Source: Candidatus Zhuqueibacterota bacterium (GTDB taxonomy: Bacteria; Zhuqueibacterota; Zhuqueibacteria; Residuimicrobiales; Krinioviventaceae). From it: a DNA stretch of 53,455 bases. Positions 23,014 to 45,475 of the stretch are shown here, piece after piece (within the stretch, counting starts at the first letter, position 1; the number at the start of each line of letters is the position of its first letter). Below the pieces are notes generated by a model. That model was not told where the DNA came from, ran no database searches, and saw nothing but the letters and a program-made list of their open reading frames with translations. The stretch spans positions 1 through 53,455 of the forward strand of contig JAFGSB010000115.1 of assembly GCA_016934825.1 (NCBI GenBank), in the 5' to 3' direction. The translations under genes and the position numbers were made by a program.

Positions 23014-25236
23014 CTAATCCCGGATTAAACGAATAGAATAGCCGAACTGCTTATGCATGTAGATGCGCCAGACAATTGTTTCCTGGTGTCTCAGCCGTCG
23101 AAGCCATACGATATTATAACCGGCCGCTGTATCAGACCAAAAGTAAGCTAATGTACCCATACCCCAGAATGTACCACCGCGCTCGGCGCGATAACCGCCG
23201 GGTAATGCGGTGAAACCGCTTTCGTTGGTGGCGCCGATATTGGGGCTTGCCCAGTGCGCCGTTCCCCTCTCTTTTATTTTCCCACCGGCAACAGCATTAC
23301 CGCCGAGGTAATCTACCAATTTCTGCCATTCTTCATCGCCAGGTACATGCCAGCCTTCGGGAGCGATATTTCGACTGTCGTTTACTGCATACCAGTTATA
23401 TAATGGCCCATAAGAAGCGGCATAGCGACTGTCATTGTTATAATAACAATAAGCAGGCGTTGTCAAATCTGCCCATTCGATATAATTTAACACAAAGGGT
23501 ATAGCGTCGCCATTTCGATAATGTGTCACTTTTAAATTTTGCGCCATCCACCACTGGTCGCCAATTTTTACTGTTTTATAGATGTTACCATCGATGTCCG
23601 TGAGGGTTCCGGTTTCACGTACAATCACACTTACTTTAGCATGGGCTATTTTGCTTTTATAAGTTGCGGTAATGGTTTCCTGTCCGGTACGAGTATCGTG
23701 TGCGGTAAACCGGCCTGTGGCGTCGATACTCCCTGCAGTACCGGGAGATATGGACCATTTGGCTAAATTAGTCACATTTTGGGCACTTTGGTCTGAAAAT
23801 ATAGCGGTGCAGGTGAATCGTCCGGTTTCCCTGTTTCTCAAGGTATCGGATACGGGTGTGATCCTGATGTTGTTTAAAGCTGTTATGGAACCATCTTTTA
23901 CACAGCGAACCGAAAATCCCACCGGCTTATCACTGCTGAAACGGTCAACACCGGCATTAAAGTGGCGCAGCATGCGTATCCACACACTGGCACTATCGAT
24001 CTCAATAGAGGACCAAAAGGTGGCGTTGTCACCCAGGGTGACGTAAGCGCCGTTTTCACAGCGGCGGTAACCGCCGGGCAGCGCGGTAAAACCGCTTTCG
24101 TTGGTAGCGCCTGCATTGGGCACATTCCAGTGAAAAGTTCCTGCTTCTTTCAGCTTTCCGCCTTCCTTCGTACCTCGACCACTAATGCTGTCCGCCTCTG
24201 AAGGTCTCATGCCTAAATATATCTCCAATTGCTTCCATTCCTCATCCATGGGTACATGCCAGCCTTCGGGAGCTATGCTGCGGCTGTCGGCAATTGCGTA
24301 CCAGTTGTACAAAGCGCCATAGACTGCGGCATAACTGCTGTCATTATCATAATAACAACATGCACCGGTATTCAGTTTTGTCCACTCGTCATTATCCTTT
24401 ACGCTTGCTAAAACATCACCATTTTGGTAATGTGTCACTTTTAAATTCTCCGCCATCCACCACTGGTCGCCGATTTTAACAGTGCGGTAGATATTACCGT
24501 CAATATCCGTTACAGTACGGTAAACAGACACATCAACAACCATATTGCCGGTTATGTGCAGATTTTGCTGCTCCCAGGTTTCAATGTCAATGCCCGACAC
24601 CCGCAACAAAAAATTGTTTGACAGTGGTTTATTCAAATTATTTCCACTGGACGCATCATGACCTGTTTTTTGAGAAATTGCGATAATTGAACGACCACAG
24701 TGACCATCGAGCAGCAGCATTTTTTTGTTGATCCGGATACCCTCAGCAGTCAAGGAATAGATATACACTCCCGCCGAAACGGCCTGACCCGAGTCGTTTG
24801 TCCCATCCCAGATAACCCGGCCAAAAAGATTGGATTGAAATCCATCGTACAATGTTTTGATCCTTTGTCCCAATACATTATATATTTCAATACGAACATC
24901 CGCGGGATGTGGCAAATCATAAGTAATAACAGTTGAGGGATTGAACGGATTGGGATAATTTTGGAACAATTGAAAAGCGCCCGGTTTTTGAACTGAGACA
25001 TCGCCGATGGCTGTTTCGGTGATCTGAATAGTATAGTGGCCCTTTTCATCGGTCGTACTTCTGAATGAACGGCTGGTATCAGCCTGGTCTATTAACTCTA
25101 CCATGGCGTTTTGTACGGGCTCCGGGTCCATTCCCGCGGAAGTGACATTGCCCTGCAAAACAATTTGAGAAAACAGGCTCAAATTGAAAATCAATAGTAA
25201 TAATGCAATCCACATAAAACATTTTTGGACGAGCAT
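23014..25236 (-). CDS. exported protein with nested sorting domain and two FISUMP domains
   Basis: The preferred ATG (25236) has AAGGAG 5 nt upstream; a more distal ATG at 25254 lacks one. After a signal peptide, residues about 28-75 start a carboxypeptidase-regulatory-like domain (LQGNVTSAG to GHYTIQI). A type IX-style sorting/FlgD-like domain (88-178) follows: FQNYPNPFNPSTVITYDLP to INKKMLLLDG. Then come apparent closing strands of the first domain (LRVSGIDIETW). Two FISUMP domains follow (TDIDGNIYRTVKIGDQWWMA and its near copy), separated by a Big2-like Ig domain (FTCTAIFSDQS). The sorting domain is thus near the N-terminus. It is the last gene of the sigma/CHAT locus. Confidence 0.75.
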   Translation of the reverse strand: MLVQKCFMWIALLLLIFNLSLFSQIVLQGNVTSAGMDPEPVQNAMVELIDQADTSRSFRSTTDEKGHYTIQITETAIGDVSVQKPGAFQLFQNYPNPFNPSTVITYDLPHPADVRIEIYNVLGQRIKTLYDGFQSNLFGRVIWDGTNDSGQAVSAGVYIYSLTAEGIRINKKMLLLDGHCGRSIIAISQKTGHDASSGNNLNKPLSNNFLLRVSGIDIETWEQQNLHITGNMVVDVSVYRTVTDIDGNIYRTVKIGDQWWMAENLKVTHYQNGDVLASVKDNDEWTKLNTGACCYYDNDSSYAAVYGALYNWYAIADSRSIAPEGWHVPMDEEWKQLEIYLGMRPSEADSISGRGTKEGGKLKEAGTFHWNVPNAGATNESGFTALPGGYRRCENGAYVTLGDNATFWSSIEIDSASVWIRMLRHFNAGVDRFSSDKPVGFSVRCVKDGSITALNNIRITPVSDTLRNRETGRFTCTAIFSDQSAQNVTNLAKWSISPGTAGSIDATGRFTAHDTRTGQETITATYKSKIAHAKVSVIVRETGTLTDIDGNIYKTVKIGDQWWMAQNLKVTHYRNGDAIPFVLNYIEWADLTTPAYCYYNNDSRYAASYGPLYNWYAVNDSRNIAPEGWHVPGDEEWQKLVDYLGGNAVAGGKIKERGTAHWASPNIGATNESGFTALPGGYRAERGGTFWGMGTLAYFWSDTAAGYNIVWLRRLRHQETIVWRIYMHKQFGYSIRLIRD

Positions 25237-25366
25237 AATTACTCCTTCGTGCATAATGAATATTTACACACTTTTGGTTTTTAAAGACCTTTTTTATGGT
25301 ACGGTGTCTTTGACAAATAACTCTAATCAGTAAAAGCTAAAAATAAACCGGATGATTTAATAATAT

Positions 25367-26383
25367 TTATTGAACGACCGTTTCCACATTAGGAAAATTA
25401 TTCGGCCACCCGCCGTCAAAATTTAACCAGGGGTTATATGAACGGTCCGCTTTTTTAACACGCAGAACGCTGAATTTTAAAGCGCCTTTTAAATTTTTTC
25501 TAAACTCCGGGCCTGATATTTCTACTTCGCCGCTGCCATTTGTGAAGACTTCGTTACACGGTGTATTACTATAGACATCGCCTTCCCATCTTCCAAAAAC
25601 ATATACGTTATCGGGTTGTTCTCCGCCGATTGTTACGGTGACGACGGGTTTTAACTTTCTCCCGGAGGGTACAATATCGATATTACTAATTGAACTGACA
25701 TGTACCGAAGGTACCGGCGCCGGATTTGTTTTTATCCAAACCGGGACATTTAATATAATTGCGGAACCACTTGCATTAACAAGTACACTCAGTAAATAAG
25801 GATCCGGCAGTGCATTGTAATCCGGGGGGCCTTCATTGACTCCGGCCAACTGGTCGTATAATAGATATGGTTCTGTATAACAGGGTTCATCAAATAAGTA
25901 GCATAATACAGTCCCATTCCAATCAAATCCGATGATCTCGGTTGAATTTTCTCCCGTAAAATCTTCGCGGATAATATCTCCCTGGACCTCGAGGGTTTCA
26001 TATATTGGCGTACCATTAAAGTAAACGATTGGGGAACCGCTGATGGCATGATCCACGGGTTGATACTTGAACCACACGGAAACCGAGTAAATACCATCCG
26101 GTTGATTAACCTCAAAATAAAATGGACATCCTCCCGGAGCAGTGACATCAACGGGGTCATTTATTGACGAGCCGGCGATGACCTCGTTATCCTGGATAAG
26201 TGTTTTACCGCCGATCGAGAATAAAACAATGTTCGGTTCCGGGGGCGTGGGCTTTTTGGTCAGGACGTTTACGTCCTCTTTGTTAATTCCCCGCGATTCG
26301 AACGGGGTATCCATTTTTTGACAGCCTGAAACAAGCAGGAATATAATCATGGCCGTCACGAAAAGATAACCTGATTTTTTCAT
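25367..26383 (-). CDS. putative lipoprotein of the CHAT/sorting-domain locus
   Basis: A 338-aa protein with a lipoprotein signal (FLLVSGC, Cys21). Predicted all-beta with Ig-like stretches: PFYFEVNQPDGIYSVSVWF, LLSVLVNASGSAIILNVPVW and KLKPVVTVTIGGE. Acidic and Gly/Pro-rich, without enzymatic motifs. GGAG precedes the start. It is placed between two large secreted proteins on the same strand (93 nt and 130 nt gaps), so it likely belongs to the same regulon. It could be an outer-membrane receptor or anchor for them; that is inference. Confidence 0.65.
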   Translation of the reverse strand: MKKSGYLFVTAMIIFLLVSGCQKMDTPFESRGINKEDVNVLTKKPTPPEPNIVLFSIGGKTLIQDNEVIAGSSINDPVDVTAPGGCPFYFEVNQPDGIYSVSVWFKYQPVDHAISGSPIVYFNGTPIYETLEVQGDIIREDFTGENSTEIIGFDWNGTVLCYLFDEPCYTEPYLLYDQLAGVNEGPPDYNALPDPYLLSVLVNASGSAIILNVPVWIKTNPAPVPSVHVSSISNIDIVPSGRKLKPVVTVTIGGEQPDNVYVFGRWEGDVYSNTPCNEVFTNGSGEVEISGPEFRKNLKGALKFSVLRVKKADRSYNPWLNFDGGWPNNFPNVETVVQ

Positions 26384-26476
26384 GGTTATTTTCTCCTTTG
26401 TTTTGGTGAATTTTTTTTATTTGAATCCGCATATTTGATAACAATTCAAGTGCTACAAATAACACGGAAAGTTGAA

Positions 26477-29356
26477 TCATTTTAAAAGAATACATTTTCT
26501 TGTCTGAACAAAATTTTCCGCCTCCAACTTTAAAAAATATATTCCGGCAGAATTTTCGGAGGCGTCCCATGTTATAGAATGATAACCTGCCTGCTTTTTC
26601 CCTGCAAAGAGCTCTGATACCAATTGACCATTTAAATTATATACTCCGATTGATACTGTGGTTGGTATTGGCAGATCATAACATATCCGCGTTGTGGGGT
26701 TAAATGGGTTCGGATAATTTTGCTTTAGACTAAAGTCCTTTGGCAGATGATCCTGGTTCATATTAATAGCACTACTTGAATAATAGCTCCCAACTTCGGC
26801 AACCTGATGAGTAATAATGATAGCCCCATTAAGCCCAATCTCTTCCGGCCCCCAAAAGGCAAATGTCGATACATCATAATACTTATTATCGTCTTCCGTA
26901 TTGGGTTCTCCCACTCCCTGGTATTTAATTCGTACAAGAATACCATCCTCATCTGTATTACTGGTCATTTCTTTTGTAGATGTAAAATTGTTCAATTTAA
27001 AATGCGCTCCGGCGTTGACAATTCCCCAATTCTTACCGGTTTTTATATCAATTTTATTTTCCCATCTTTGTGATCGTTTACAAGACTCATTTACACGGTT
27101 AGTTTTTCCCCATTCCTTTTCATAGGAAAGCATTGCTGTATTTATATTTTGTTCAAGCGTAGGAAATACTTTATCAAGATTATTATAGATAAAATATGGA
27201 TTTGAATTATTCATAAATGATACAACATTCCCATGAGTATGCAGCATAAAAGGCGACATAAAATTAACCAATGCATTTTTTTCCTCCGTTCCATATGACG
27301 CTTCGTATTCTGTTAAATAATTCTCCCAAGTCATCATCTGTAAATGTGTTCCGGCATCCCTGGGTTTGAGTATATAGAGAAATAATTCTTTGCCTTCATC
27401 AGATAAAATGGGTTCTCCTGTAAAGCTTTCTATCCTGAACGGGTAAATATCATATTTTGCTGTTGGAAAAATAACCTGAGTAACATTTTGATGACATTCC
27501 CAGTAATCAGTGTCAGAATTTCCTTCGTAATACTCTTTCTTATTCATTACGGTATCACGATAAGTCTTTTCGAATATAGTCTTTGTCCCCAGCCATTTTA
27601 CTCCCGCATTAATTTTGAAATTATAGCCATAACCGGTTTGAGTTTGAACGGAAGTAGAAGTATCATGCTCTGTGTTGAATTTAATATCAATTTGAGTAGC
27701 CGGATTTACCCCTTGCTGATAGGGCGGAGGATTTATTATTGCAACGGGTTTATTAACAAAAGGCGCAGTATTCAGGGAATCAAACATTCCAACTTTATAC
27801 CGGCACCAATAGGAATCATTATCAATGTCGACAGGAATAATTACCGGCCAGGTAAATCCATGATCGGAAGAGTCATAATTTCCCAGATATGACGATTTTT
27901 CCTCAATGGCTTTAAAGTCTTTTCTTGTCGTATCATAGACAACCGTGTACAGTTTCGGCATATCAGTGACAAAATAAATTTCACCATATTTATCGCTGTT
28001 CATATTGGTAATTGCCATGGAATGTTTCAGACCGGTATCCTCTATCTTGTCATTTAATTCTTCTTTCGCGACCAATCCTTCCATATCATCAAGTTCAAAT
28101 GTATAAAACCAATAATGCATACATGTTTTTGTCAATGTTTTATAAGTCAGACTTGCGGCGATGTCACAACACCCGTTATTATCCATATCTCCAACGTTTA
28201 GCTGCAAATTATCATAATCCGTATTTCTCTGGTCCCTTAAAGTAAAAAGTTGAGTGTTGTCCAGCAGCGAACCCTTCATGTTTTCAAATTCAATTTGATT
28301 CCATTCATCTTTTTCCGTATCATAGCTGAAAACCAGAATTTCAAAACCGCTTTTAAAATCATCCGGCGGAAAGCCCCCTTCATAATCAAGGCTTCTGAAT
28401 ACGACAACTTCATCTTTTCCATCATTATTTATATCACCCGACGAGATCCTGAACTTGTGCCTTGATCGAAAGATATCGGAAACTGATATAAAATCGTTGG
28501 CTGCTTTTTCCCATCTTTTGATGATCTGATATCCCGGCCAACCGAAAGGGAACGCGATTGAATTTTCTCCCTGTTTTGTCCAGTCAAATGCTCCGATTGA
28601 GATTTCTTCTATTGTAAATTGATTAGTCGGCGGAAAATTTCCCGTAAGGTAAGAAAAATATAATCCATGTGAAAAACAAACTTCATCGTAACCATCTCCA
28701 TCATAATCACAGACCACTGCATCTACAGGTGAAAAAAAGGTGCTGATAGGGGAAAATTGACAAGAGGATTTTTTTTCAAAAAAACGATGGATTTCTTCAT
28801 TGCCTGCTGATGAAAACCGGAAACCGTTCATCCTGATAAAGTTATCCTTATTTTTGAATTCATCCCATTGCGTGGCAATGACAACTTCTTTAAAATTTCC
28901 CTGTATTGCTTCAGGAGTAAAGTAACCGGAAACGATACAGGGATTGTATGCATCTGAAATTTTGCTGTTTAATGTCGTTACCTGCTCAATGCCGGTTTCG
29001 TTACAAATGGCATGCTGTAATGTTATTTCATTGCAGTTTTGAGATCCTATTATCAGCTCGATCGTTTCTTTGTTTGCATCGAAATTGCCGCTTGTGCCGC
29101 AAATTGCGTTGTAATCATTCAGCATACGTGTTACCATATGAGTGTTGTTTTCACAAAGATTATGGAATACAAAATTATCATTCACTAAATCCACACATTG
29201 AATATAAGGGGCGTTCCAATCGCTTTCTCCAATAAAAATAGTCAAAAGTTCATCATTTGGTAATCTAAAATCTTTAAATGGCGGCTCCTGCGAATGAGCC
29301 CAAAAGGCCAAACAGAAAAACAGGAACAAAAAAGAACAATATTCTTTCTTTTTCAT
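26477..29356 (-). CDS. secreted FG-GAP-like protein with C-terminal sorting domain
   Basis: A 959-aa protein with a signal peptide (FLFLFFCLAFWAHSQ) and a strong AGGAGG. The N-terminal half has FG-GAP/VCBS-like calcium-binding repeats: VVCDYDGDGYDEVCFSHG, SGDINNDGKDEVVVF, VGDMDNNGCCDIAASL and ITNMNSDKYGEIYFV, consistent with a beta-propeller. The middle (about 540-850) is unassigned and rich in Tyr, Asn and Thr. The last 85 residues are a canonical sorting domain: LKQNYPNPFNPTTRICYDLP, VSIGVYNLNGQLV, YHSITWDASENSAGIYFLKL and RKCILLK. It is expected to be exported across the outer membrane by a type IX-like system encoded elsewhere. Confidence 0.75.
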   Translation of the reverse strand: MKKKEYCSFLFLFFCLAFWAHSQEPPFKDFRLPNDELLTIFIGESDWNAPYIQCVDLVNDNFVFHNLCENNTHMVTRMLNDYNAICGTSGNFDANKETIELIIGSQNCNEITLQHAICNETGIEQVTTLNSKISDAYNPCIVSGYFTPEAIQGNFKEVVIATQWDEFKNKDNFIRMNGFRFSSAGNEEIHRFFEKKSSCQFSPISTFFSPVDAVVCDYDGDGYDEVCFSHGLYFSYLTGNFPPTNQFTIEEISIGAFDWTKQGENSIAFPFGWPGYQIIKRWEKAANDFISVSDIFRSRHKFRISSGDINNDGKDEVVVFRSLDYEGGFPPDDFKSGFEILVFSYDTEKDEWNQIEFENMKGSLLDNTQLFTLRDQRNTDYDNLQLNVGDMDNNGCCDIAASLTYKTLTKTCMHYWFYTFELDDMEGLVAKEELNDKIEDTGLKHSMAITNMNSDKYGEIYFVTDMPKLYTVVYDTTRKDFKAIEEKSSYLGNYDSSDHGFTWPVIIPVDIDNDSYWCRYKVGMFDSLNTAPFVNKPVAIINPPPYQQGVNPATQIDIKFNTEHDTSTSVQTQTGYGYNFKINAGVKWLGTKTIFEKTYRDTVMNKKEYYEGNSDTDYWECHQNVTQVIFPTAKYDIYPFRIESFTGEPILSDEGKELFLYILKPRDAGTHLQMMTWENYLTEYEASYGTEEKNALVNFMSPFMLHTHGNVVSFMNNSNPYFIYNNLDKVFPTLEQNINTAMLSYEKEWGKTNRVNESCKRSQRWENKIDIKTGKNWGIVNAGAHFKLNNFTSTKEMTSNTDEDGILVRIKYQGVGEPNTEDDNKYYDVSTFAFWGPEEIGLNGAIIITHQVAEVGSYYSSSAINMNQDHLPKDFSLKQNYPNPFNPTTRICYDLPIPTTVSIGVYNLNGQLVSELFAGKKQAGYHSITWDASENSAGIYFLKLEAENFVQTRKCILLK

Positions 29357-29506
29357 TGTAAACCTCCTGAAAAAAAAGTTGAGGTATAAATTAATTGAGA
29401 CAATTGTGGTCGTAAATCTGATTGAAAATTAATTCAGACATATTTATTTTTATGAGCGTTTTAAATTAAGTTATCAATTCAACGACTCCCAAAGTTATTT
29501 ACGTAA

Positions 29507-31906
29507 CTATTTAACCGTGATCTGCTCGTACCAGACCATTTCAGCGTCATTCGCCCCCGTAGCTACAATATCCATGTCGGAATCGCCATCCAAATCGATA
29601 ATCTCGACGCGGTGGGCATTATGCAATTCGTTATCGACAATATGCATGGACCAGTCGGGCGCCTTGAACCAGACGACGAAATGGGACGTTGAATCCGTCG
29701 CCACTACATCCAGCATCATGTCGTCGTTCATATCGGCGGCCTTCACATCGCAGGCATATTCCAGATTATTACTGATTACGTGTTTAGTCCAGGATGGCGC
29801 TTCATACCAGACCACATCTACTTCGCCGACGCCGGTGGCGAGCACATCCAGTTTTCCATCGGCATTGAGGTCAACAATATTCACATATTCGGCGCCGTTG
29901 AGATTATCATCGATATATATTTTATCCCAGTAAGGCGCCTTGTACCAGATCACGGCATTTGCTTCCATTCCTGTCGCAACAACATCAATATCAATGTCGC
30001 CGTCAAAATCAGTAACGCCCATATTCGCGGCGCCCGCCAGGCTGTCGTCGATGATGTGAATTGTCCAGTCCGGGTATTCATACCAGACCAGCATATCGTT
30101 GTCATGACCGGTGACCACCACATCCGGATCGCGGTCGGCATTCATGTCTGCAACACATAAATCATAGGGATTTGTTATATTTTTTTTATAATCGATATAA
30201 TGTACTCCTCGCCAATCAGGGAAAACGATTCCAAAGGCTTCATAATCATACCTTTCAACCCAGATTACGGCCCACTCTGCATAACCTGTCATAACAACAT
30301 CCAGATCATCATCCTTATCCATGTCGGCAACTTCTATATCAGAACGAGGGAATACCGGTGGTGCGGGGTACCAACTAAAAACCTCGAACCAATCAGATGC
30401 AATAAAGTAACTGAGGTAAGAACTTCTTTGATTATTCTGTTCTAATCCGGCCCTAAATACGATATCCGGATTTTCATCATTATCCCACATGACCAGTTTA
30501 AAATCATAATAATTATCCCAGCAATAACAATTAATTTCATGTTTGATCCACTGTGTCTCCAAACCCGCGTATTCCGGGCCGGTTGTAAATGTGGCCAAAA
30601 ACGGATTTTCAAGATGATTACCGTTTATATCAGCAATTTCCGTTGTGAGTTTGATCGTATAGACCGTATTCGGATCAAGCGGCTGATCCGGTGTGAAGGT
30701 AATACACGTATTGTCTTCAATGAATCCAATTGAACCGGACACATAACCGGCCGCATTGAACAGGGTAAAGCTATTAACGTTCACCGTTACGCTGTTTATC
30801 GGCTCGGTGAACCTGATAATAATAATTGAGTCGATTATGATGTCCTTGTCACCGTTTGTGGGTGCGGAGGAGGTGATTTTGGGGGGTACATTATCAACAA
30901 TATTAAACGAACTTTGTATAAATTCTCCCATATATGTAGACATTTGTACTGTTAGGCAATCGCCTGTTGCTGCTTCAAGTTCCAACAAAGGAAAACTGCC
31001 GTCATAATAAACCTGTGCGCTGGTCATTTTCCCGGTATTATTATTTAAAACAGTAATATTATCCAGCCCACAGGTCGTATCGATCACTGTTCCGGCCAAA
31101 CCGCTGACGTATACCTGTCCCGAATCACCCGGATCGGATATATGAATCAGCTCCTCATTAAATAAAGAGGTCTCTTTTTGAACGACATGAATATCAAAGT
31201 TTACGTCATTTGATGAAATAGTAATATGCTTTTTTTCAAATATGTTTATTCTTTGACCGGTTGCGCGGATGGTCACAGTCATCGTATTCGGTTTATTTAA
31301 AGTATTATTATGATTCTCCTGTTTTTGTATTTGTGTTTTGTAATGAAATGAGGCATGACCCGCACCGTACCCGTCAATCAACGTCATTTTCCGGGTTTGC
31401 ATGTAGTCACCGGCCCGTAATTGGTAAAAATAGATGCCGGCGGCCACGCCGTTACCGTTTCCATCGGTCGCGTCCCAGGCTACTGTATAATGTCCCTGTG
31501 CATATCTACCGTCAACCAGAGTTTTGATCTTTTGACCCAGGGTGTTGTAAACAACAAGCTGGATGTGTTCGGCCCTGGGAATCTGGAAATTGATGAGCGT
31601 AGAGGGATTGAAAGGATTGGGATAATTTTGTTCCAGTTTGAATTCAGCCGGTTTATGATCCTGCGGAACGGATTTGACCGCGGTCGCCAGATTGAGCACA
31701 TACCTGCCGGTTATATCAGTTTTACCGGAACATTTTTGAGCCGGATCGGCTTCGTTGATCACTTCAACCATAACATTGGCAACTCCTTTTCCATTACTCA
31801 TATCGGTTACATAACCGTGGAAACAAATTTCATTCAAATCCTGCGTGAAAAGACAGGTATTGATTATGAATAAAAAAGCCGATAGAAATAAAATTATTTT
31901 TTTCAT
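29507..31906 (-). CDS. exported FG-GAP protein with nested N-terminal sorting domain
   Basis: The signal peptide covers residues 1-21. A carboxypeptidase-regulatory-like segment (ICFHGYVTDMSNGKGVANVM to GRYVLNL) is followed by a sorting/FlgD-like domain at 89-179 (LEQNYPNPFNPSTLINFQIP to TRKMTLIDG), then VTIRATGQRINIF and VNFDIHVVQ strands. Next is a Big_5 Ig-like domain (PPKITSSAPTNGDKDI to FLATFTTG) and about six FG-GAP/VCBS repeats with DxDxDxD-type loops (VADMDKDDDLDVVMTG, VTDFDGDIDIDVVATG, IIDLDGDSDMDIVATG). The start is 20 nt after the CHAT gene, with GAGG as ribosome-binding site, so it is surely in the same operon. It is a plausible direct client of the CHAT protein. Confidence 0.8.
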   Translation of the reverse strand: MKKIILFLSAFLFIINTCLFTQDLNEICFHGYVTDMSNGKGVANVMVEVINEADPAQKCSGKTDITGRYVLNLATAVKSVPQDHKPAEFKLEQNYPNPFNPSTLINFQIPRAEHIQLVVYNTLGQKIKTLVDGRYAQGHYTVAWDATDGNGNGVAAGIYFYQLRAGDYMQTRKMTLIDGYGAGHASFHYKTQIQKQENHNNTLNKPNTMTVTIRATGQRINIFEKKHITISSNDVNFDIHVVQKETSLFNEELIHISDPGDSGQVYVSGLAGTVIDTTCGLDNITVLNNNTGKMTSAQVYYDGSFPLLELEAATGDCLTVQMSTYMGEFIQSSFNIVDNVPPKITSSAPTNGDKDIIIDSIIIIRFTEPINSVTVNVNSFTLFNAAGYVSGSIGFIEDNTCITFTPDQPLDPNTVYTIKLTTEIADINGNHLENPFLATFTTGPEYAGLETQWIKHEINCYCWDNYYDFKLVMWDNDENPDIVFRAGLEQNNQRSSYLSYFIASDWFEVFSWYPAPPVFPRSDIEVADMDKDDDLDVVMTGYAEWAVIWVERYDYEAFGIVFPDWRGVHYIDYKKNITNPYDLCVADMNADRDPDVVVTGHDNDMLVWYEYPDWTIHIIDDSLAGAANMGVTDFDGDIDIDVVATGMEANAVIWYKAPYWDKIYIDDNLNGAEYVNIVDLNADGKLDVLATGVGEVDVVWYEAPSWTKHVISNNLEYACDVKAADMNDDMMLDVVATDSTSHFVVWFKAPDWSMHIVDNELHNAHRVEIIDLDGDSDMDIVATGANDAEMVWYEQITVK

Positions 31907-31926
31907 ACATGCCTCTATTGATTAAC

Positions 31927-34900
31927 TCAAGTCCCGATTAAAACAAATGAAGCCCAAAAGTATGGGTGAGCAAAAAAATGTTTTTTATTTTTTGATAATG
32001 AATTTTTCAACATTTCTCTCTGGGTCAATGTTAACGCCTCAGCTTTATTTTTAGTTTTTAAATGCTGATAAAAATTGTTCATAAATAAAGATGTAGACTG
32101 ATCATGAATTTTCCATAAACTGGCAATAACGCAGGGGGAACCGGCGTATAAAAACGCGCTGGAAAGACTGACAAGATCATCACCCTGTGGAAAGCTGGAA
32201 AAAAAGCCGCTTCCGATTGCCGTTTGACAGGCGCTTAAGGTGACAAGAAGCGCCGTCAGGTCCAGATCAAATATCTCGTGAACCTCAAGCTGGCCGTCAT
32301 CGGATTCGGATTTGGCCAGATCAAGACTGGAAAATAAGGGATTGAACCTGTTAAAATGTGCTGTCGTGGCAAAATGTAATAAATCGTATTTTTTTCCACT
32401 CTTCTTGACCAGGGATTCGGTGGCCTGTTCATCCAGTTTATAGTCTGCGATATTTCCGTATATGTTTTTAATTTCCAGTATTTCATCTTTTGACATTGGA
32501 AGAGAGCTGCTATTCGGCGCCAGCAGGAGCAAAGAACGCATAACATCCGATCTTTTTTCTTTGCAGTATTTGAGTATACTGGCAGAAGGCGCATAAGAAA
32601 TGATGTAATCTTGGACCAAATAATGGACATTTTTCAGAACATTTTTTTCCAGTTCATATTCACTGATCAACGCCTGAAAAGGTAAATGATATAAAATTCC
32701 CTGAGGTATAATGATCAATCGTTTCATATGTGCGAGATGCCCTGCTTTTTCAACAGGGGATATAAGTGTTTCGTATAGTTCTTTTAATGGTTTCAACCAG
32801 TAAGTGTTTGTTATTTTTTCCGGATTCATGTTCCGCGTAGCTATCCCTCGGAACAGGATGATCTTGCCGTACAGGTCTTCCCTGGTTACGGGACGCCTTA
32901 ACACTTTAACATTATTTCTTGTCAATATAAAAATGAATAAATCATTTTCCGTTATAAAATACTCCAATAATGCAGAATCATTATCCAGTAATTGTCTGAT
33001 TTGTGGTGCGGCGGCGGGTTCAATATTGACAAGAGCGGCATGTTGGGGATCAGATAATTTTAAATCGAAAAGAGTTTGCCGGTATTCCTCTTGTGTTTTG
33101 TGTAATTCGGAAATAATTATTCTTTTGGCGTTATCGCGAGTTTCCAGGTTTTGAAACCTGTTATTTCCATATATCCTGTCTTTCAGGTTCGTTATTTTAG
33201 TCCGTAATTCATGTTCTTTATTTAAAAGAGACGCGTTTTTGTTGGTTTTATTTATTTTATTATTACCAATAATGTCCAACAGATTTCTTGAACGGGTATG
33301 TTCCACATATTCTAGGGCTTCTTCATATTTTCCCATATGTACGAGTAATGAAATAATGGCTTCGTAGGGTTTATATCGTTTTGACAAAACACCTGATTTT
33401 ATCTCATCCACATAAGACTTGTTACGTATTCGTTCAATTGCATCGATTGCGGCTTTGTAAGAAGTGATTGCTCTGCCGTTTTCGCCCTGTTGTTCCCAGA
33501 GTTTCCCGTTCCCATAATATAATTGCCATTTTAAGTCAAGATCATCAAATTCATCAATAATTGCCAGCCCCTGTTCATAAGCGCCTGAAGCTCTTTGAGT
33601 TTCAAAATGGTCACAGTAAAAATCCCCCAATAATTGTAAAAGCCATGCCTGAAATCTTTTTTCACCAATTTCCTCAGCAATATTCCGGGCCTCAAACCAG
33701 CAATTTATTGTTTTGCTCGAGTCTTGCATTTGATCATAAATATTTCCCAGCCTGATCAGTGTTAAACATTCATTTCTTTTTTCACCGGATTCGGTAAATA
33801 TTTTCAGTGAGTTTGTTGCGTGCTCTTTGGCATTTTTTATATCCCCCTTTGTTAAATATATCTGGCTCATTTCAAGTTGTGCGACAGCAATACCGTTTTT
33901 ATTTCCGATCTGTTTTTGTAATGCCAATGACTTTTCCAGATTTGACAACGCATTGTTATGATCGCCTATATTGGTATAAACTTCCCCGAGAGCTTCCAGC
34001 CAGTAAGCGGCTCCCCGCAAATGGCCGATCTCTTCATGCAGCCCCAGGGCTTTTTGATAATTAATGATTGCTCTGGTGTAGTCACCCCTGTATGAACAGA
34101 CTTTAGCGATTCGCGCATACTGATACGCTTCGCCCTCTTTATAGTCAAGTGTTTTGTGAATCTCCAATGCTTTATTGAAATATAAATGCGCATTGTTGAA
34201 ATCCCCCAGATTCATATATACAATACCGAGATTACCGAAATCGTTTCCCAATCCTTTTTTATCCCCGGTTTCCTGGCGTATTGATATTGTCTCTTCATAT
34301 AAGGAAATGGATTTCGCAAAATCGCCCAGATTCAAATATACATTTGCCATATTTCCAAGATTTTTACCCGAACTGCGAATATTGTTTATGCTTTTGTTGA
34401 TAACGTAAGAGGAATCGTAATGGGACAACGCTTTTCTATATTCACCCATTTCTTCATAAACCAGGCCCGAATTGTTCAGATCGGCCGCCAGCCCCCGCAT
34501 ATCATCAAGTTCTTTTCTGATCTGTATCGCTTTCTTATAATACTTTAACGCCATTGGATAATCACTTTTATCGCTGTATACGGTTGCAATATTACCCAGC
34601 CTGTTGCCGACACGTCGATTATCTCCCAGTTTTTCATGCATCATCAAAGATCTTTTATAATAATCCAGCGCTTTGTCGAACTCGCCAAGATAAAAATAAG
34701 CGGAACCAATACTACCGGTCAGAGCGGCAATTTCATCCGTATCATCAATTTCCTGAGCCAGATTATACGCCCTTTCAAATATTGACAAAGCGTTCAGAAA
34801 ATTTCCACCATAAAATTCAGATTTACCTCTTTGTTTCAAGTGGATGATTTCTGATTTTTTTTCAAGAGCTGTTCCGGTAAATTGCGTGTAACTTTTTACC

Positions 34901-35232
34901 CGGTTATGATAATATTCATCATTAAAAATTTGTGAGTAAATATCTGCAATTGTTTTGGCCATTTGTTTATCAGTGTAGGCTCCGGTAGTATTTTTGCGAG
35001 CACTTTTCACAATCGATGAATCCAGTAACGCTTCTATCAAACGGATTGCTTCAGACCTGTCCGACTGAATTATCCCGGTTAAATTTTCCGTATTATTGTT
35101 CTGTATTGATTGTTTCACCCGGTTGGGGAAATCGGCAGGTGTCTGTGATCCGGCGGGGATTAAAATACTCAAAATAATTAAAAAATAGACTGCCAAAAGG
35201 ATTTTGTTAAAAAAAGCAGTGTTTTTAAACAT
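31927..35232 (-). CDS. exported TPR-CHAT protein, putative caspase-like protease
   Basis: A hydrophobic N-terminal segment (ILLAVYFLIILSILIPAGS) is a signal peptide or anchor. About a dozen kinesin-light-chain-like TPRs of 40 residues follow (roughly 130-640, for example GEFDKALDYYKRSLMMHEKLGD). A coiled linker then leads to a C-terminal CHAT domain (about 780-1101). The catalytic Cys is Cys1002 in VTLSACQTAIGS, and GDDLVSLSSAFLYAGSPCVIASLW is the typical following helix. The usual A-T-H-G/A motif reads A-T-T-A-H-F, so the expected His position is Thr957 and a His lies at 959. The start has AGAGG, and the gene is 9 nt after the anti-sigma gene. CHAT proteins cleave protein targets when their sensor domain is triggered. 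Confidence 0.88.
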   Translation of the reverse strand: MFKNTAFFNKILLAVYFLIILSILIPAGSQTPADFPNRVKQSIQNNNTENLTGIIQSDRSEAIRLIEALLDSSIVKSARKNTTGAYTDKQMAKTIADIYSQIFNDEYYHNRVKSYTQFTGTALEKKSEIIHLKQRGKSEFYGGNFLNALSIFERAYNLAQEIDDTDEIAALTGSIGSAYFYLGEFDKALDYYKRSLMMHEKLGDNRRVGNRLGNIATVYSDKSDYPMALKYYKKAIQIRKELDDMRGLAADLNNSGLVYEEMGEYRKALSHYDSSYVINKSINNIRSSGKNLGNMANVYLNLGDFAKSISLYEETISIRQETGDKKGLGNDFGNLGIVYMNLGDFNNAHLYFNKALEIHKTLDYKEGEAYQYARIAKVCSYRGDYTRAIINYQKALGLHEEIGHLRGAAYWLEALGEVYTNIGDHNNALSNLEKSLALQKQIGNKNGIAVAQLEMSQIYLTKGDIKNAKEHATNSLKIFTESGEKRNECLTLIRLGNIYDQMQDSSKTINCWFEARNIAEEIGEKRFQAWLLQLLGDFYCDHFETQRASGAYEQGLAIIDEFDDLDLKWQLYYGNGKLWEQQGENGRAITSYKAAIDAIERIRNKSYVDEIKSGVLSKRYKPYEAIISLLVHMGKYEEALEYVEHTRSRNLLDIIGNNKINKTNKNASLLNKEHELRTKITNLKDRIYGNNRFQNLETRDNAKRIIISELHKTQEEYRQTLFDLKLSDPQHAALVNIEPAAAPQIRQLLDNDSALLEYFITENDLFIFILTRNNVKVLRRPVTREDLYGKIILFRGIATRNMNPEKITNTYWLKPLKELYETLISPVEKAGHLAHMKRLIIIPQGILYHLPFQALISEYELEKNVLKNVHYLVQDYIISYAPSASILKYCKEKRSDVMRSLLLLAPNSSSLPMSKDEILEIKNIYGNIADYKLDEQATESLVKKSGKKYDLLHFATTAHFNRFNPLFSSLDLAKSESDDGQLEVHEIFDLDLTALLVTLSACQTAIGSGFFSSFPQGDDLVSLSSAFLYAGSPCVIASLWKIHDQSTSLFMNNFYQHLKTKNKAEALTLTQREMLKNSLSKNKKHFFAHPYFWASFVLIGT

Positions 35233-35241
35233 AATATACCT

Positions 35242-36102
35242 CTATTTTTTTTCGTATTTGAAAAAAAACATATCAGAAGTAATCGTAGCGCCGTTTTTTG
35301 TTAAACCTTCAATTTGCCAAAAATAATTAGTTTTGGGAACAAGCTTTATATTTTCCGGTAGTTTTAATTTATTTTTGGATGTTTTCTGGTTCATTATAAT
35401 ATGTCCGTCTGAATCAAGCAGCAGAAAAACATAATTTTTTATATCCGGCGAATCCTGCCATTGAAATTTGAAATTATTATTTCCCACAGTACAATTATTT
35501 TTTGGCGATATTAACTTAATCTCCGGGACTATATATTGTTCCGTTGATTCGCGAGTAACGAACGGATTAAAAGTGCTGATATCCGATTGAACCAGAACCA
35601 TACATAAAACAATTATTATTACCGCAAGACCGGCCCACCTGTAACCCGGTTGCGGTTTTGTCAACCTGTCAAATAATGATTTTACACCGGTAACAAAATC
35701 CTTAGCATGTGAAGAAATGAAATCATAAATATGTTCCCTGATATCATTTTTACCAATTAATCTTTCGCTTTTCAATTCGTGCAGATATTCTTCAATGATT
35801 ATTAATTTGGACAAGCATAATTCACATTGACTGAGATGGGTAAAATATTGTTTTTTCCTTTTGCCGCTGAAATGGCCTGTTAGATATGCAATGTGATCAT
35901 TTTCATCGTAGCATTGTTTTGTTGGAGTTGAGTCCCCAATTTGCTGTGTGGAAAGTATTGAGCCATAAAACCTTTTGAACAATAAGAGTTTGTTCTTGCA
36001 TTGTTGACATTCCTGCAAATGTTTTTGAATTTCTTTGTTTTCTTTGTCAATCAATGTTCTATTACAATAATCAAATATCTGTTTTATATTTAGACATTTC
36101 AT
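35242..36102 (-). CDS. anti-sigma factor with two zinc-finger motifs
   Basis: Two ZAS-like HxxxCxxC motifs are present: H28-x3-C32-x2-C35 (HLQECQQC) and H89-x3-C93-x2-C96 (HLSQCELC). A single transmembrane helix (WAGLAVIIIVLCMVLVQS, about 156-173) precedes a periplasmic domain of about 110 residues that resembles a fibronectin-like sandwich (YIVPEIKLISPKNN, FKFQWQDSPDIKNYVFLLLD). This is the topology of membrane anti-sigma factors. I chose the internal ATG at 36102, preceded by GGAG at 9 nt, over an ATG at 36117. It lies 114 nt after the sigma factor and 9 nt before the CHAT gene. The periplasmic part could sense envelope signals or be cleaved. Confidence 0.8.
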   Translation of the reverse strand: MKCLNIKQIFDYCNRTLIDKENKEIQKHLQECQQCKNKLLLFKRFYGSILSTQQIGDSTPTKQCYDENDHIAYLTGHFSGKRKKQYFTHLSQCELCLSKLIIIEEYLHELKSERLIGKNDIREHIYDFISSHAKDFVTGVKSLFDRLTKPQPGYRWAGLAVIIIVLCMVLVQSDISTFNPFVTRESTEQYIVPEIKLISPKNNCTVGNNNFKFQWQDSPDIKNYVFLLLDSDGHIIMNQKTSKNKLKLPENIKLVPKTNYFWQIEGLTKNGATITSDMFFFKYEKK

Positions 36103-36216
36103 AATATTTATCTCCATTATTGTTATATTATATAATAACGGACACGCAATCCTCTTTTTGCATTTTTTTTGGTTTTAAATTGGATAATAAAGACCGGGTA
36201 GTCGGCTTTAAGAGAA

Positions 36217-37068
36217 TTATTTCAGAATATTTTCGATATCGGAAGAATCAATGCTATAAGATTCAAGTTCTCTTTTTATTTTGGCCAGCAGTTTCTTTAA
36301 CAGCCGATGTACTCTCCAGATATTTTTGATTTTTAATATTCTGGCGATTTGTTCCAGTGTCAGTCCCCGGTAAAAATAAAGATTAAGCAGTAAATTTTCA
36401 TTTACGGTCAGTCCGGCAATAATTTTTTTATAGATATTTTTTATATCATCCGAAATGATCAGACTGTCAGGTTGATCGGCCTGCAGTTTTTGTTCTTTAC
36501 CGGACAAGGTTCCCTGCGAAGCAGGTTTTACATCTTTATCATTTATTAAGAATATTTGAGGGTTATTATGTATTAAAGGGCTTTTTGTCTTTTTTACCAG
36601 GGTTGTAATTTTATCTATATGCGAGACTATTTCTTCCGGGGTGATAGTATGTTCATAATTTGTTGTTATGATTTCGTAGATAGTTTTATCGGAGTAATGA
36701 AACCAGAATTTGTATTTATAAATCAATTGGTCAAGCAGGGGTAGCTCTTTAATGTTTCCGCTTACCCTTTTTCTGCCATGTTGTTTTCTCAACCAGTCGA
36801 TACAGCAGTTTCTGATAGTGACAGCAAGCCACGGTTCAAATCTATATTGCCGTTTACTTTTATAATATGTGATTATTCTGGAATAATTGTCCCTTTTTAA
36901 TTTTTCCAGGATATAGGTATACATATCCATCATGGCGTCATAATCAAAAGCGTATTTTTTGATGATCGCCATGAAGAGATCATTATAACATTCAAGAAAA
37001 TGTTTCCAGCCTTTTTCGGGATTTTGTTTTAAACATTTCTCCCAATTTTGTTTAGCTTTTTGAAACAA
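36217..37068 (-). CDS. ECF-like RNA polymerase sigma factor
   Basis: Region 2 is seen at about residues 20-100 (ECYNDLFMAIIKKYAFDY, then EPWLAVTIRNCCIDWLRKQHGRKR, the sigma2.3-2.4 -10 contact helix). Region 4 is at about 225-270: LNLYFYRGLTLEQIARILKI, then WRVHRLLKKLLAKIKREL, a helix-turn-helix for -35 recognition. Between them lies about 110 residues, much longer than in typical ECF factors of 160-200 aa. The start is a TTG with AGAGGGG 4 nt upstream; the next ATG would remove part of region 2. It heads the sigma/anti-sigma/CHAT locus and probably drives it in an autoregulated way. Confidence 0.82.
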   Translation of the reverse strand: MFQKAKQNWEKCLKQNPEKGWKHFLECYNDLFMAIIKKYAFDYDAMMDMYTYILEKLKRDNYSRIITYYKSKRQYRFEPWLAVTIRNCCIDWLRKQHGRKRVSGNIKELPLLDQLIYKYKFWFHYSDKTIYEIITTNYEHTITPEEIVSHIDKITTLVKKTKSPLIHNNPQIFLINDKDVKPASQGTLSGKEQKLQADQPDSLIISDDIKNIYKKIIAGLTVNENLLLNLYFYRGLTLEQIARILKIKNIWRVHRLLKKLLAKIKRELESYSIDSSDIENILK

Positions 37069-37235: not shown

Positions 37236-37555
37236 CCTCACAAATCACAAAAACCTGTGAGTGTTGGGTGATAGAGTTTTGGGCGCAATTGTCTTGCCAA
37301 TCGGGAGATTGGTAATGGGGGACAACAACCGGCCCCTCGATACAATCCCGTCTCGTCCTAAAAGCGGGACGAGACGGGATCACTCGGGGCCCGGGTTGTA
37401 TAACATAAAACTCTCGCAGGTTTTCAAAACCTGCGAGGGTTGATAATATAGAAATAATTCCAACAAGGTGTAATAATCCCTTGTTGCGGGTACATCAAAA
37501 TGGCGCAGAGGCATGGGCCTCTGCGCGACTATAAGGGGCATTTGCCCCTTGTTGG
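37236..37555. repeat. cluster of REP-like hairpins
   Basis: At least six palindromes lie end to end. They are CCAATC / GATTGG (37297-37312); a 14-bp stem starting ATCCCGTC, closing GACGGGAT (37345-37380), nested in an outer GGCCCC / GGGGCC arm; CTCGCAGGTTTT / AAAACCTGCGAG (37413-37437); CAACAAGG / CCTTGTTG (37461-37486); GCGCAGAGGC / GCCTCTGCGC (37503-37526); and AAGGGGCA / TGCCCCTT (37533-37550). A weak CTCACA / TGTGAG pair precedes them. The same motif families (CCAATC..GATTGG and CGCAGAGGC) recur at 52.7-53.0 kb. Confidence 0.75.
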
Positions 37556-37565
37556 AAAGAACAGT

Positions 37566-39980
37566 TTACTGTTTCTTTGGCTTTTTCGGCGCTTCCAAAA
37601 CCTGGCCGGCCTGGTGCAGGGTGAGGGAGGTCACGTTACCGTTTTCGTCTTTGTTAAAAACAACCTGCGCGTTGACAACCTTGAAGAAAAATTCGGTTTC
37701 GGAACTGGGAAACATTTCGAATTTGGGTTGTCCGGTCGCCTGGTTAAAGATTTTGTCTCCTTCTTTGGTAATTGTGAGGATAAAATCGGGCATTAGTTCG
37801 TATTCGCCGACATAGGCGTCGTAAACGGCCGGATCGACCAGCACGGCGGTTTTTCCCACATATCTGGACGCCCTGATCTCCCGACCACCCTGGTGGTGAA
37901 TGACGTTATTCACCTGTCCGTCCTCATCCCGGACAAATGTAATCTGCGCGTCCACAACTTTCCAGAAAAACTCGGTTTCGGAGCGTGGGAATATCTGTAA
38001 TTTCCCCTGGCCGGTAAATTGCGCGAACAGTTTACCATCCTGAGTGGTGATGTCCATAATACCCTGGCCGTAATCGTAACGGCCGACATAATCCTTAAAG
38101 ACGGACGGATCTACAGAGGTATCCTCCGCCAGCGTTTTTTGCTGTTCAAGCTGTTTCCAGAAATAGATTTCGGCAATCTGTCGGGCGGCGTCCTCGGTGC
38201 CGAAACCTGGCGGCAGCGGCACACTATTACACAGGACCACAACGGTGGCGTTAATATCCGGGAGACGGGTCAGATAGGAACTGAAACCATGCAGGCCGCC
38301 GCCATGTGCGATTTCCCGTAAGCCGCGAAAATCCACGAACGCCCAGCCGTAACCGTATTTGCCCATATCCTGCGGTTCCGTGCCGTCATTCAGTTTCACC
38401 GGCGTTAATGCCGCCTGCAGGGAGGATTCCTGCAATACTTTGCCGTTAAAAATGCTCTCGTTCCATTTGTACAGGTCGCCGACTGTGGAGTACAGGTTAC
38501 CCGCGCCCCCGGCCCAGGACATGTCCCAGTTCAGCGATCTTTTGTAGGCATCGTTTTCATAAGAATAGCCGATTGCTTCATGCGGCAGTTCTATGTCTTT
38601 ATAGTGTACGCCGGTGTTTGTCATGCCGAGCGGTCCGAAAAAGTTTTGCTGCAGAAAATCATTATAGGACATACCGGAAATCTGTTCAATCAGATAACCC
38701 AAAATAAAATAACCGGAATTGTTGTACAACCATTTTTCACCGGGATCAAAGTCGTATTTGTCTTTCTTAATCAATTCAATCAATTCATCCGGTTGTACGG
38801 TTTTTTCAACTTTTTTAATAAAATCGGGTGTTGACGTATAACTGTGAATCCCCGATGTGTGGGTGAGCAGATGGTGGATGGTCACCTCGTCGCCGCGCGG
38901 GAAATCCGGAATATATTTGGAGAGTTTGTCCTGAACGCTGATCTTGCCCTGTTCCTGGAGTTTCAGGATCGCGGCGGCGGTAAACTGTTTGGTTATGGAA
39001 CCGATGCGAAACTGCGTCTCGGGAGTGACCGGAATTTTCTCCTCCGTATTTTGATTGCCGTAGCCTTTTTCAAATACGATCTTTCCATCTTTTGCCACAA
39101 GCACCGCGGCGCCAGGGGTTTTATCATTAAATACGTTGGTGAAAACAAGATCTGTCAGTGTTTCATTATCGGGAAAGGGAATATATGTATCCGCGCCATG
39201 ATCCTCAAGTATTTGCAGAATTTCCGTACGCCCCTTGATTTGCGCGAATTGATAGGGGGTCAGCCCGTTTTTGCTTTTAAGGTTGACATTTGCGCCATAT
39301 TCGATCAGCATATTCACATCGTCGATTTGTCCCATTGCCGCAGCGTACATCAGTTTTTCAGATTTTGCGGTATCGCCCATAATTCGGCAGGCAAAGCCCC
39401 AGCTATATTGCATGTTCTGAATTTTGAGTAACAGCCGGTTTTTCCCTTTTTTCAGGGTAACGGGGACTATATCATCGTCAATATTCACCGCCCGGCCTAT
39501 CCAGTTTTCGTGAACCAGTTCGCCGTTGAGCCAAACTTTGAGACCATCGTCACTGCCGATGCCGAACAAAATTTTCGTGGTTTCCGGTATGTTTATTTCG
39601 GCATAGGCATAAACGACAACATATTCTTTTTCGCCGTACCTTTTTACCAGATCGACAATATTCTCTTTCGAGTTGAGAAGAGTCCAGTTCGAAACGAGGT
39701 TTTTCCCCGGTTCGGAAATATCAATCGACGCCTCTCCGCCATACGCCGACAACAGATCTTTATCGAATCTTTTTTTCTGGGCTTCATCGTCCCTTTCTTC
39801 CAATGTATCTTTAAAAACGGGGATCGGTCCAGCAACCATCCACGAGGTCATAAATTCATCCGGCTGAGGATTATTATAAATAGCCGGATTATCAGGACCG
39901 GCAAAGATCGTAATATTCAGCAGCAGCGTTAAACAGAGAACCATCAGGCGGAGTATCCGATAATTGTTTGATGTAAACAT
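37566..39980 (-). CDS. secreted class C beta-lactamase-fold hydrolase with ankyrin repeats
   Basis: Starting at the ATG preceded by AGGAG (39980; a longer frame opens at 40058), the protein has a signal peptide (LRLMVLCLTLLLNITIFA). A jelly-roll-like domain (about 40-200, with ILFGIGSDDGLKVWLNGELV, as in PA14/GH2-type modules) and two ankyrin repeats (about 206-268) follow. Next is a serine beta-lactamase/DD-peptidase domain: S328-x-x-K331 (GSITK), Y419-N-N421 (YNN), and H559-G-G (HGGGLHG). Finally there are two tandem DUF3471-like domains (YVGRYDYGQG and YVGEYELMPD). The catalytic triad motifs are intact. Likely a periplasmic or surface esterase/peptidase. No transporter or regulator is adjacent. 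Confidence 0.85.
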   Translation of the reverse strand: MFTSNNYRILRLMVLCLTLLLNITIFAGPDNPAIYNNPQPDEFMTSWMVAGPIPVFKDTLEERDDEAQKKRFDKDLLSAYGGEASIDISEPGKNLVSNWTLLNSKENIVDLVKRYGEKEYVVVYAYAEINIPETTKILFGIGSDDGLKVWLNGELVHENWIGRAVNIDDDIVPVTLKKGKNRLLLKIQNMQYSWGFACRIMGDTAKSEKLMYAAAMGQIDDVNMLIEYGANVNLKSKNGLTPYQFAQIKGRTEILQILEDHGADTYIPFPDNETLTDLVFTNVFNDKTPGAAVLVAKDGKIVFEKGYGNQNTEEKIPVTPETQFRIGSITKQFTAAAILKLQEQGKISVQDKLSKYIPDFPRGDEVTIHHLLTHTSGIHSYTSTPDFIKKVEKTVQPDELIELIKKDKYDFDPGEKWLYNNSGYFILGYLIEQISGMSYNDFLQQNFFGPLGMTNTGVHYKDIELPHEAIGYSYENDAYKRSLNWDMSWAGGAGNLYSTVGDLYKWNESIFNGKVLQESSLQAALTPVKLNDGTEPQDMGKYGYGWAFVDFRGLREIAHGGGLHGFSSYLTRLPDINATVVVLCNSVPLPPGFGTEDAARQIAEIYFWKQLEQQKTLAEDTSVDPSVFKDYVGRYDYGQGIMDITTQDGKLFAQFTGQGKLQIFPRSETEFFWKVVDAQITFVRDEDGQVNNVIHHQGGREIRASRYVGKTAVLVDPAVYDAYVGEYELMPDFILTITKEGDKIFNQATGQPKFEMFPSSETEFFFKVVNAQVVFNKDENGNVTSLTLHQAGQVLEAPKKPKKQ

Positions 39981-40133
39981 AGAGACTCCTGATTTAAATA
40001 TAATGTATATAATGGATTTAAAAGTATTTACGATAAAGACCGGAATAGGTTTCCCCAATTGTAAAAATTTTAATATTTAATACGGAACAGTCCCATTCAA
40101 ATTAGGAGTTAGGGACGAAAAAAAGCCGGGGAT

Positions 40134-41594: not shown

Positions 41595-41607
41595 AATAAA
41601 ATGCGCC

Positions 41608-42192
41608 TTAATAATAGATTTGGGCCAACTTTAAGAGTTGAGAGCTGAAATCAATATTTTCCAACTTTGCAGCGTCAAGATTTATTAATATTTGCGGCTT
41701 GTTACCTTTTATACCCACTCCGACGGTTAAACCGAATTTAATATATTCCTCAACTCCCGACATTGTAATAATATGATACTTGCGACTTTTATTTTTGATT
41801 TCTTCAATTCCTTTCGCTCTCAGGGGAGTAACGTAAAAAACATCAATTTTTTCTGACAGCAGGGCGGTTTCAAGATCAGTCGTATCGATATTTATGGTTG
41901 TAAATTTAACATCCAGACCCTCTAATTTAGTTAACCCGGATTTATTTAATTCATCAACAAAATTATTTTTTGCGTTTAAAGAAGTATTAAATTTTCTTTG
42001 ATAAATAATTCCGATAACAATTTCATCGCCGACCTTATTTTTAAAATTTCGGTCAAATGTTAATATTTTTAATAAAATAGGTAAATGGATTCTTATGGGT
42101 ACTGAAATATCCTGCCCTAAAACCGGGAATATCAATGTAAAAAGTAAGATAATGGTAACATTCTTTGTGTATTTTAATGACAGTGGGTTCAT
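41608..42192 (-). CDS. YfiR-family (DUF4154) periplasmic protein
   Basis: A signal peptide (IILLFTLIFPVLG) is followed by the DUF4154/YfiR fold: LLKILTFDRNFKNKVGDEIVIGIIY near the start, DLETALLSEKIDVFYVTPL in the middle, and a diagnostic ending KPQILINLDAAKLENIDFSS with LLKLAQIYY. In Pseudomonas, YfiR is a periplasmic repressor of the membrane cyclase YfiN and is relieved by the outer membrane protein YfiB. Here the gene lies 4 nt after a TonB receptor and 13 nt before a CHASE8-like kinase. I infer that it relays state between the receptor and that kinase. Confidence 0.85.
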   Translation of the reverse strand: MNPLSLKYTKNVTIILLFTLIFPVLGQDISVPIRIHLPILLKILTFDRNFKNKVGDEIVIGIIYQRKFNTSLNAKNNFVDELNKSGLTKLEGLDVKFTTINIDTTDLETALLSEKIDVFYVTPLRAKGIEEIKNKSRKYHIITMSGVEEYIKFGLTVGVGIKGNKPQILINLDAAKLENIDFSSQLLKLAQIYY

Positions 42193-42196
42193 AAAA

Positions 42197-45271: not shown

Positions 45272-45475
45272 AAAATTACTCTTAATTTTTAATTACGGTT
45301 AACGGACTCCGCAATCTGATGCGGTTTACACATTCTATAAAATCAATTAATGTAACAAAGTGCAATAAATAATAAGGAATTATCAGCCGGTGAAACAAGT
45401 TCAATAACGTTAAAATACAGGAATATATTAATAATCCATTTCTGTGAGTGATGGTGCAAAGTCAAACCGGATACT

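Follow-up and report, generated by a model that had tools for sequence, protein, structure and literature searches.

Seven open reading frames on the minus strand (37068-23014 of the window, i.e., of the whole stretch of 53,455 nucleotides that was analyzed) may together form a transmembrane sigma switch of the DdvS/DdvA type, in which the functions of DdvA are split over two genes and which feeds surface proteins; this is put forward as a serious possibility that falls somewhat short of being probable. The gene order described in an earlier note, namely sigma factor, anti-sigma factor, TPR-CHAT protein, two FG-GAP proteins, a lipoprotein and a FISUMP protein, is reproduced by the open reading frames and by the domain scan. 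Most of the distances given there also stand, with 114 nt between sigma and anti-sigma genes (99 nt with the upstream ATG at 36117), followed by 9, 20, 150 and 93 nt, but the last gap is 112 nt and becomes the 130 nt given earlier only if the FISUMP frame begins at an internal ATG. No terminator-like site was found on the minus strand inside the cluster gaps (within 37068-23014), and three such sites occur immediately before the start of the sigma gene. From the overall reading proposed earlier, a conserved unit of sigma factor, anti-sigma factor and exported CHAT protein can be retained, with sorting-domain genes behind it and a conserved promoter-like element, but not the cleavage by the CHAT protein as it was written. 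The conserved promoter-like element and a Thr-for-His change shared by two CHAT proteins are new in the present analysis.

The first gene (36217..37068, minus strand, TTG start) encodes an alternative sigma factor of 283 aa from an eight-member family in the phylum, an assignment drawing on TIGR02937 (1.6e-21, 76.6 bits against a cut-off of 42.9), on Sigma70_r4 (4e-6) and on a predicted model. The label ECF, used earlier, is apt insofar as sigma-70 regions 2 and 4 are both recognized by TIGR02937, but this is not a minimal ECF factor, the two regions being separated by an extra helical segment instead of a short linker only. In the model, the extra helices span residues 101-161 and a low-confidence linker residues 162-204; since the mean pLDDT is 69, only the order of the helices was used. 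Because a comparison of profiles gives a weak match of the extra segment to the family's own region 4 (E 4e-5, probability 71%), this segment could represent either a second domain like region 4 or one like region 3. The neighboring anti-sigma factor (35242..36117, minus strand; the start may be 36102) has two zinc-finger motifs, one TM helix at about residues 157-177 and an outer FN3-like domain. Its domain matches are weak (zf-HC2 0.0084, RsrA-like 1e-5); the Cys and His residues of both HxxxCxxC-type motifs are invariant in six homologues, and against solved structures its profile matches RsiW best, at the N-terminus (E 0.0016). Matches of the same profile to a designed FN3 (0.23) and to DdvA (0.31) are non-significant, and the FN3-like label of the outer domain comes from this weak structure match together with a pattern of conserved residues. 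The predicted topology would place the zinc fingers on the cytoplasmic side and the short FN3-like domain outside. Adjacency, conservation and domain content suggest that the two proteins are a putative functional inhibitory pair. As in SigW/RsiW and RpoE/RseA, a zinc-finger membrane anti-sigma factor adjoins its own sigma factor, although the window sigma differs from those by its extra segment; no exported TPR-CHAT gene is known to belong to either of these systems.

The sigma family occurs in 8 of 82 genomes of the phylum including the window genome (7 of 81 others), and its scores drop from about 270 to about 54 bits, the lower matches covering region 4 only. Weak sigma matches, found in most relatives, were rejected as family members, almost all being FliA-type factors in flagellar clusters. 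The family was not found in the one other genome of the window's genus, and its distribution is thus patchy. At all six other loci that reach beyond the sigma gene, an anti-sigma gene comes next, and in five of them a CHAT gene follows (one cut by a contig end, one broken). In the nearest relative (G043), sigma, anti-sigma and TPR-CHAT proteins are 36-37%, 35% and 47% identical to those of the window, and the next gene encodes a homologue (38%) of the first FG-GAP protein. The order is the same in G064, whose CHAT protein is 42% identical and cut by the contig end, the remainder of the gene not being among the matches in that assembly. Sigma, anti-sigma and CHAT genes followed by a gene with a sorting-type domain are also found in G032 and G022, where the CHAT proteins have a different N-terminal part without a TPR match and keep the catalytic His. 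The CHAT gene of G027 is broken by fusion to unrelated sequence, and the contig of G065 ends after the sigma gene. As G040 has sigma and anti-sigma genes without a CHAT gene next to them, CHAT is not obligatory. The co-occurrence predicted earlier, of sigma, anti-sigma and exported CHAT genes with sorting-domain proteins in relatives, was therefore found, with the gene order kept. A wider genome scan with the sigma factor returned records matching G043 (labeled candidate division KSB1) and G065 (labeled Bacteroidota), both metagenome assemblies, and one unrelated weak match. In G027 (L042 8981-11119), the cut CHAT sequence is joined to a dehydrogenase-like sequence, followed by an asparagine-synthase-like gene; the join is either a rearrangement or an assembly join.

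Sigma and anti-sigma genes, the latter with zinc-finger, TM and TPR parts, also adjoin other TPR-CHAT genes of the phylum. Around other TPR-CHAT loci, selected for their resemblance to the window CHAT and not at random, 14 sigma and 15 anti-sigma neighbor candidates were scanned; 11 match Sigma70_r2 and 9 zf-HC2, many with TPRs. From these sigma, zf-HC2 and TPR matches at the sampled loci, the parts of DdvA appear to be common in the phylum as separate genes.

Upstream of the anti-sigma gene lies a promoter-like element, GCAAAA-N11-TGTCCGTT (36137..36161, minus strand), which relatives have kept at the corresponding junction. TGTCC is found 39-66 nt before the anti-sigma gene at all eight loci, mostly as TGTCCGTT. 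When the gaps between sigma and anti-sigma genes are compared, the full element has identical spacing in the window, G043 and G064, while G065 shows GCAAAA-N11-TGTCC at the very end of its contig, cut after TGTCC. TGTCCGTT is present in G032, G027 and G022, and TGTCCATC in G040; in these four genomes the element stands 58-66 nt from the anti-sigma start, as against 39-42 nt in the subgroup with TPRs. Exact matches to the full element number one per genome in the window, G043 and G064, each at the sigma/anti-sigma junction. For a shuffle test, seven gaps were used (G027 was excluded as a near copy of G032, and G022, of the same genus, was retained): TGTCC is common to 7/7 and TGTCCGTT to 5/7, above all of 1000 dinucleotide shuffles, in which an 8-base word was never common to more than four gaps. 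Shared descent contributes to this likeness, as the sigma/anti-sigma gaps are homologous; the sigma proteins of element-bearing loci are just 22-38% identical to that of the window, and the remaining gap sequence shows no such likeness by eye. GTC is usual in the -10 region of ECF promoters. The element is probably a promoter, putatively recognized by the sigma factor of its own locus. With one mismatch allowed, it is no commoner in the window genome than in a reversed control (10 vs 10), and the remaining four sites that match a shorter form exactly all lie inside genes; for these reasons no wider regulon is claimed. A word search found no word common to the upstream regions of the sigma, second FG-GAP, lipoprotein and FISUMP genes, and neither in the window nor in G043 did the element turn up ahead of the surface genes further downstream, so control of these genes by the sigma factor would need read-through.

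The third gene (31927..35232, minus strand) encodes a protein of 1101 aa that is identified by domain scan and model as an exported TPR-CHAT protein, with an N-terminal signal sequence, many TPRs and a CHAT domain (PF12770, 1.5e-60, 205.6 bits against a cut-off of 24). Both its sequence and its fold, which matches Csx29 and separase, are those of the CHAT family: for the predicted model (pLDDT 83), Csx29/Craspase is the best match, followed by separase and DdvA, and in the comparison of profiles with solved structures, DdvA (E 2e-7) ranks ahead of the Csx29 chains. However, a motif survey and alignment place Thr957 (codon 32362..32364, minus strand) at the position of the catalytic His, whereas the conserved Cys1002 (codon 32227..32229, minus strand) is kept. 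All 25 aligned CHAT domains have the Cys, while the His column varies. The motif HFAT[T]AHF, with the bracketed Thr in place of His, is shared by the window protein and that of G043, the nearest relative at about 47% identity; its coding pattern HFATTAHF occurs in 2 of 82 genomes, namely these two. All other complete CHAT motifs in the phylum sample keep both His and Cys, with the exception of the degenerate first half of a giant protein that has two CHAT domains. Loss of the His is not recent decay, since the change is common to two full-length proteins with about 47% identity. With the canonical dyad missing, the window protein is filed as a CHAT-domain protein and not as a demonstrated CHAT protease, and the earlier proposal that it cleaves the anti-sigma factor or the secreted proteins is weakened by the Thr found here and in the closest relative. 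Membership of a defense system was considered for this protein and rejected, the PADLOC result consisting of TPR matches and one weak match to a candidate model in the TPR part.

A new His, His959 (codon 32356-32358, minus strand, from the same survey and alignment), stands two residues further on and could be a relocated catalytic residue. An active periplasmic protease with a dyad of Cys1002 and His959, cutting the outer domain of the anti-sigma factor in a site-1-like manner and freeing the sigma factor, is accordingly an alternative: Cys1002 is invariant, His at +2 appears exactly in the two proteins without the canonical His and in no other CHAT surveyed, the His-keeping G032 and G022 share the gene order, and Craspase offers a precedent for a TPR-CHAT protein cutting a sigma inhibitor (PMC10028731). 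Yet the canonical His is lost, and in Csx29, with its dyad H615/C658, the H615A/C658A double mutant is inactive (PMC10028731), which leaves this alternative unlikely.

A search of the available literature found no description of operons with sigma, anti-sigma and exported TPR-CHAT genes. The earlier statement that no described system has such a composition nevertheless overlooks two relevant cases, DdvS/DdvA from Myxococcus (PDB 8rot, 8rw5, 8rlz) and Craspase (PMC10028731). The title of the DdvA structure names a transmembrane anti-sigma factor, and DdvS becomes active once DdvA is inactivated, the signal being unknown (PMC4374960). As in M. xanthus, a sigma factor stands under a membrane anti-sigma factor with a zinc-type N-terminal domain, and CHAT is part of the signaling unit. 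The zinc-finger domain, with motifs invariant in six homologues, precedes the membrane helix (from about residue 157) as in a DdvA-type protein. While DdvA is one polypeptide, an anti-sigma factor fused to TPR-CHAT, zinc domain, TM helix and TPR-CHAT are distributed in the window over two genes (35242-36117 and 31927-35232). In addition, the aligned CHAT motifs of DdvA keep His and Cys whereas the window CHAT has no canonical His, and the window anti-sigma factor differs by its FN3-like outer domain, as does the locus by the surface-protein genes that follow. DdvA/DdvS governs a CRISPR-CBASS island. Craspase (Cas7-11/Csx29 TPR-CHAT, Csx30, CASP-sigma) likewise ties a TPR-CHAT protein to a sigma factor and its inhibitor, but the window CHAT, unlike Csx29, has an export signal. 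Scores also place the locus outside Craspase and type III-E, with 43.3 bits for the window CHAT against the Csx29 model NF041237 (cut-off 300) and 20 for the window sigma against the III-E sigma model (cut-off 100). In Craspase, the protein that activates Csx29 is RNA-bound Cas7-11, and the target cut by Csx29 is Csx30 (PMC10028731).

The four genes that follow, all on the minus strand, encode an exported protein with carboxypeptidase-regulatory-like, internal sorting-like, Big_5 and FG-GAP domains (29507..31906; its 38% homologue in G043 occupies the corresponding position), an FG-GAP protein with a C-terminal T9SS sorting domain (26477..29356; Por_Secre_tail 2e-10), a lipoprotein with the lipobox LVSGC and without family match (25367..26383) and a FISUMP protein with two Fib_succ_major domains (23014..25254). 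These domains are as described earlier, with one addition from the domain scan, an internal sorting-like domain in the FISUMP protein (residues 100-179). The type A sorting domain TIGR04183 is C-terminal in 26477-29356 (42.8 bits against a cut-off of 23), and above the cut-off but internal in 29507-31906 and 23014-25254, so that in two of the three window proteins the internal domain is a candidate sorting signal. The window genome contains at least 150 Por_Secre_tail matches and a homologue of SprA, a T9SS core protein; because of this abundance, one sorting gene nearby means little. At E 1e-5, G043, G032 and G022 have 112, 51 and 42 sorting domains per genome. With so many sorting domains, the unit may comprise sigma, anti-sigma and CHAT genes only, the last four being ordinary T9SS neighbors; in its favor are also the gaps of 150, 93 and 112 nt, the lack of an element before the last four genes and the conservation of the first FG-GAP gene alone in G043. 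However, the gaps are free of terminator-like sites, and the next same-strand gene after CHAT has a sorting-type domain at all four readable family loci (window, G043, G032 and G022). This narrower unit is judged rather doubtful, an estimate that is not exclusive since it is compatible with every other reading.

Outside the sigma family, sorting-domain genes are also enriched near TPR-CHAT genes (15/117 neighbors vs 2/165 genes in FliA control loci, Fisher p 6e-5), a contrast that may be inflated since the controls are mostly flagellar clusters. Together with the position of the element before the anti-sigma and CHAT genes, and with a distant similarity of the CHAT fold to that of the gingipains, the family of T9SS peptidases with a caspase fold, this would fit a CHAT protein that is an output and not a regulator, the products of a sigma-driven operon acting jointly at the surface in processing, anchoring or scaffolding T9SS proteins. 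Against it, CHAT adjoins the anti-sigma gene in most sampled loci, DdvA is a precedent for regulation and G040 keeps the switch without CHAT, all of which makes such a role distinctly unlikely.

The split DdvS/DdvA-type switch is favored instead, being consistent with the conserved triplet in G043, G032, G022, G064 (cut) and G027 (broken) and with the CHAT model, whose predicted fold matches DdvA, an anti-sigma factor with the same domain. Given its export signal, the TPR-CHAT protein is predicted to share the periplasm with the outer domain of the anti-sigma factor. It would sense an envelope or surface-protein cue and relay it to that domain through a binding interaction, without canonical Cys-His proteolysis, upon which the anti-sigma factor would release the sigma factor. 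Once freed, the latter would mainly transcribe its own operon of anti-sigma, CHAT and surface-protein genes, giving a feedback-limited local switch that deploys T9SS-type surface proteins. In the His-keeping relatives, the same relay step could be cleavage. As the usual catalytic His is replaced in the exported CHAT, what drives the switch may be a sensor and not a working protease. It is proposed, quite tentatively, that an exported caspase-like protein, either catalytically silenced or re-wired by a two-residue shift of its His, acts as the sensor arm, on the periplasmic side, of a sigma switch that deploys T9SS surface proteins. It would mark one end of a series that begins with fused DdvA, passes through split TPR-CHAT/anti-sigma pairs whose dyad is intact and ends in a pseudoprotease.

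In bacteria, caspase-like proteins of the CHAT type have mostly been discussed as defense or death proteases. A role in envelope signaling is indicated by exported TPR-CHAT genes adjoining sigma/anti-sigma pairs and surface-protein genes, both here and at many sampled loci of the phylum. Whether CHAT proteins can signal without cutting could be tested cleanly thanks to the shared loss of the His, and the unique promoter-like element lends itself to a reporter of the switch.

Several other arrangements were encountered. Many genomes of the phylum encode a giant protein, about 2,700-2,880 aa long, that combines PD40 repeats and TPRs with two CHAT domains (L045 4893-13337, on contig C106 of the window genome, and L092-L118); in the L045 protein the first CHAT has no recognizable dyad, and an AsmA-family gene lies nearby. 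In G001 (L133 1895-8861), a tandem TPR-CHAT pair is found behind a membrane protein resembling that which precedes the window genome's C9 CHAT gene (L044). Three hairpins of 10-11 pairs each (37237-37526), on the minus strand of the window and upstream of the gene for the sigma factor, are possible terminators or small repeat elements. Next to them, also on the minus strand, 37566-40058 encodes an 830-aa protein with an unusual mix of a beta-lactamase-type domain, DUF3471, ankyrin repeats and a weak PA14 match. Further on (40134-50468, minus strand), the gene for a 1306-aa multi-PAS HWE/HisKA_2 kinase overlaps that of a receiver-HisKA_2 kinase, near a TonB-dependent receptor (42197-44164) and a CHASE8-HAMP kinase (40134-41594).
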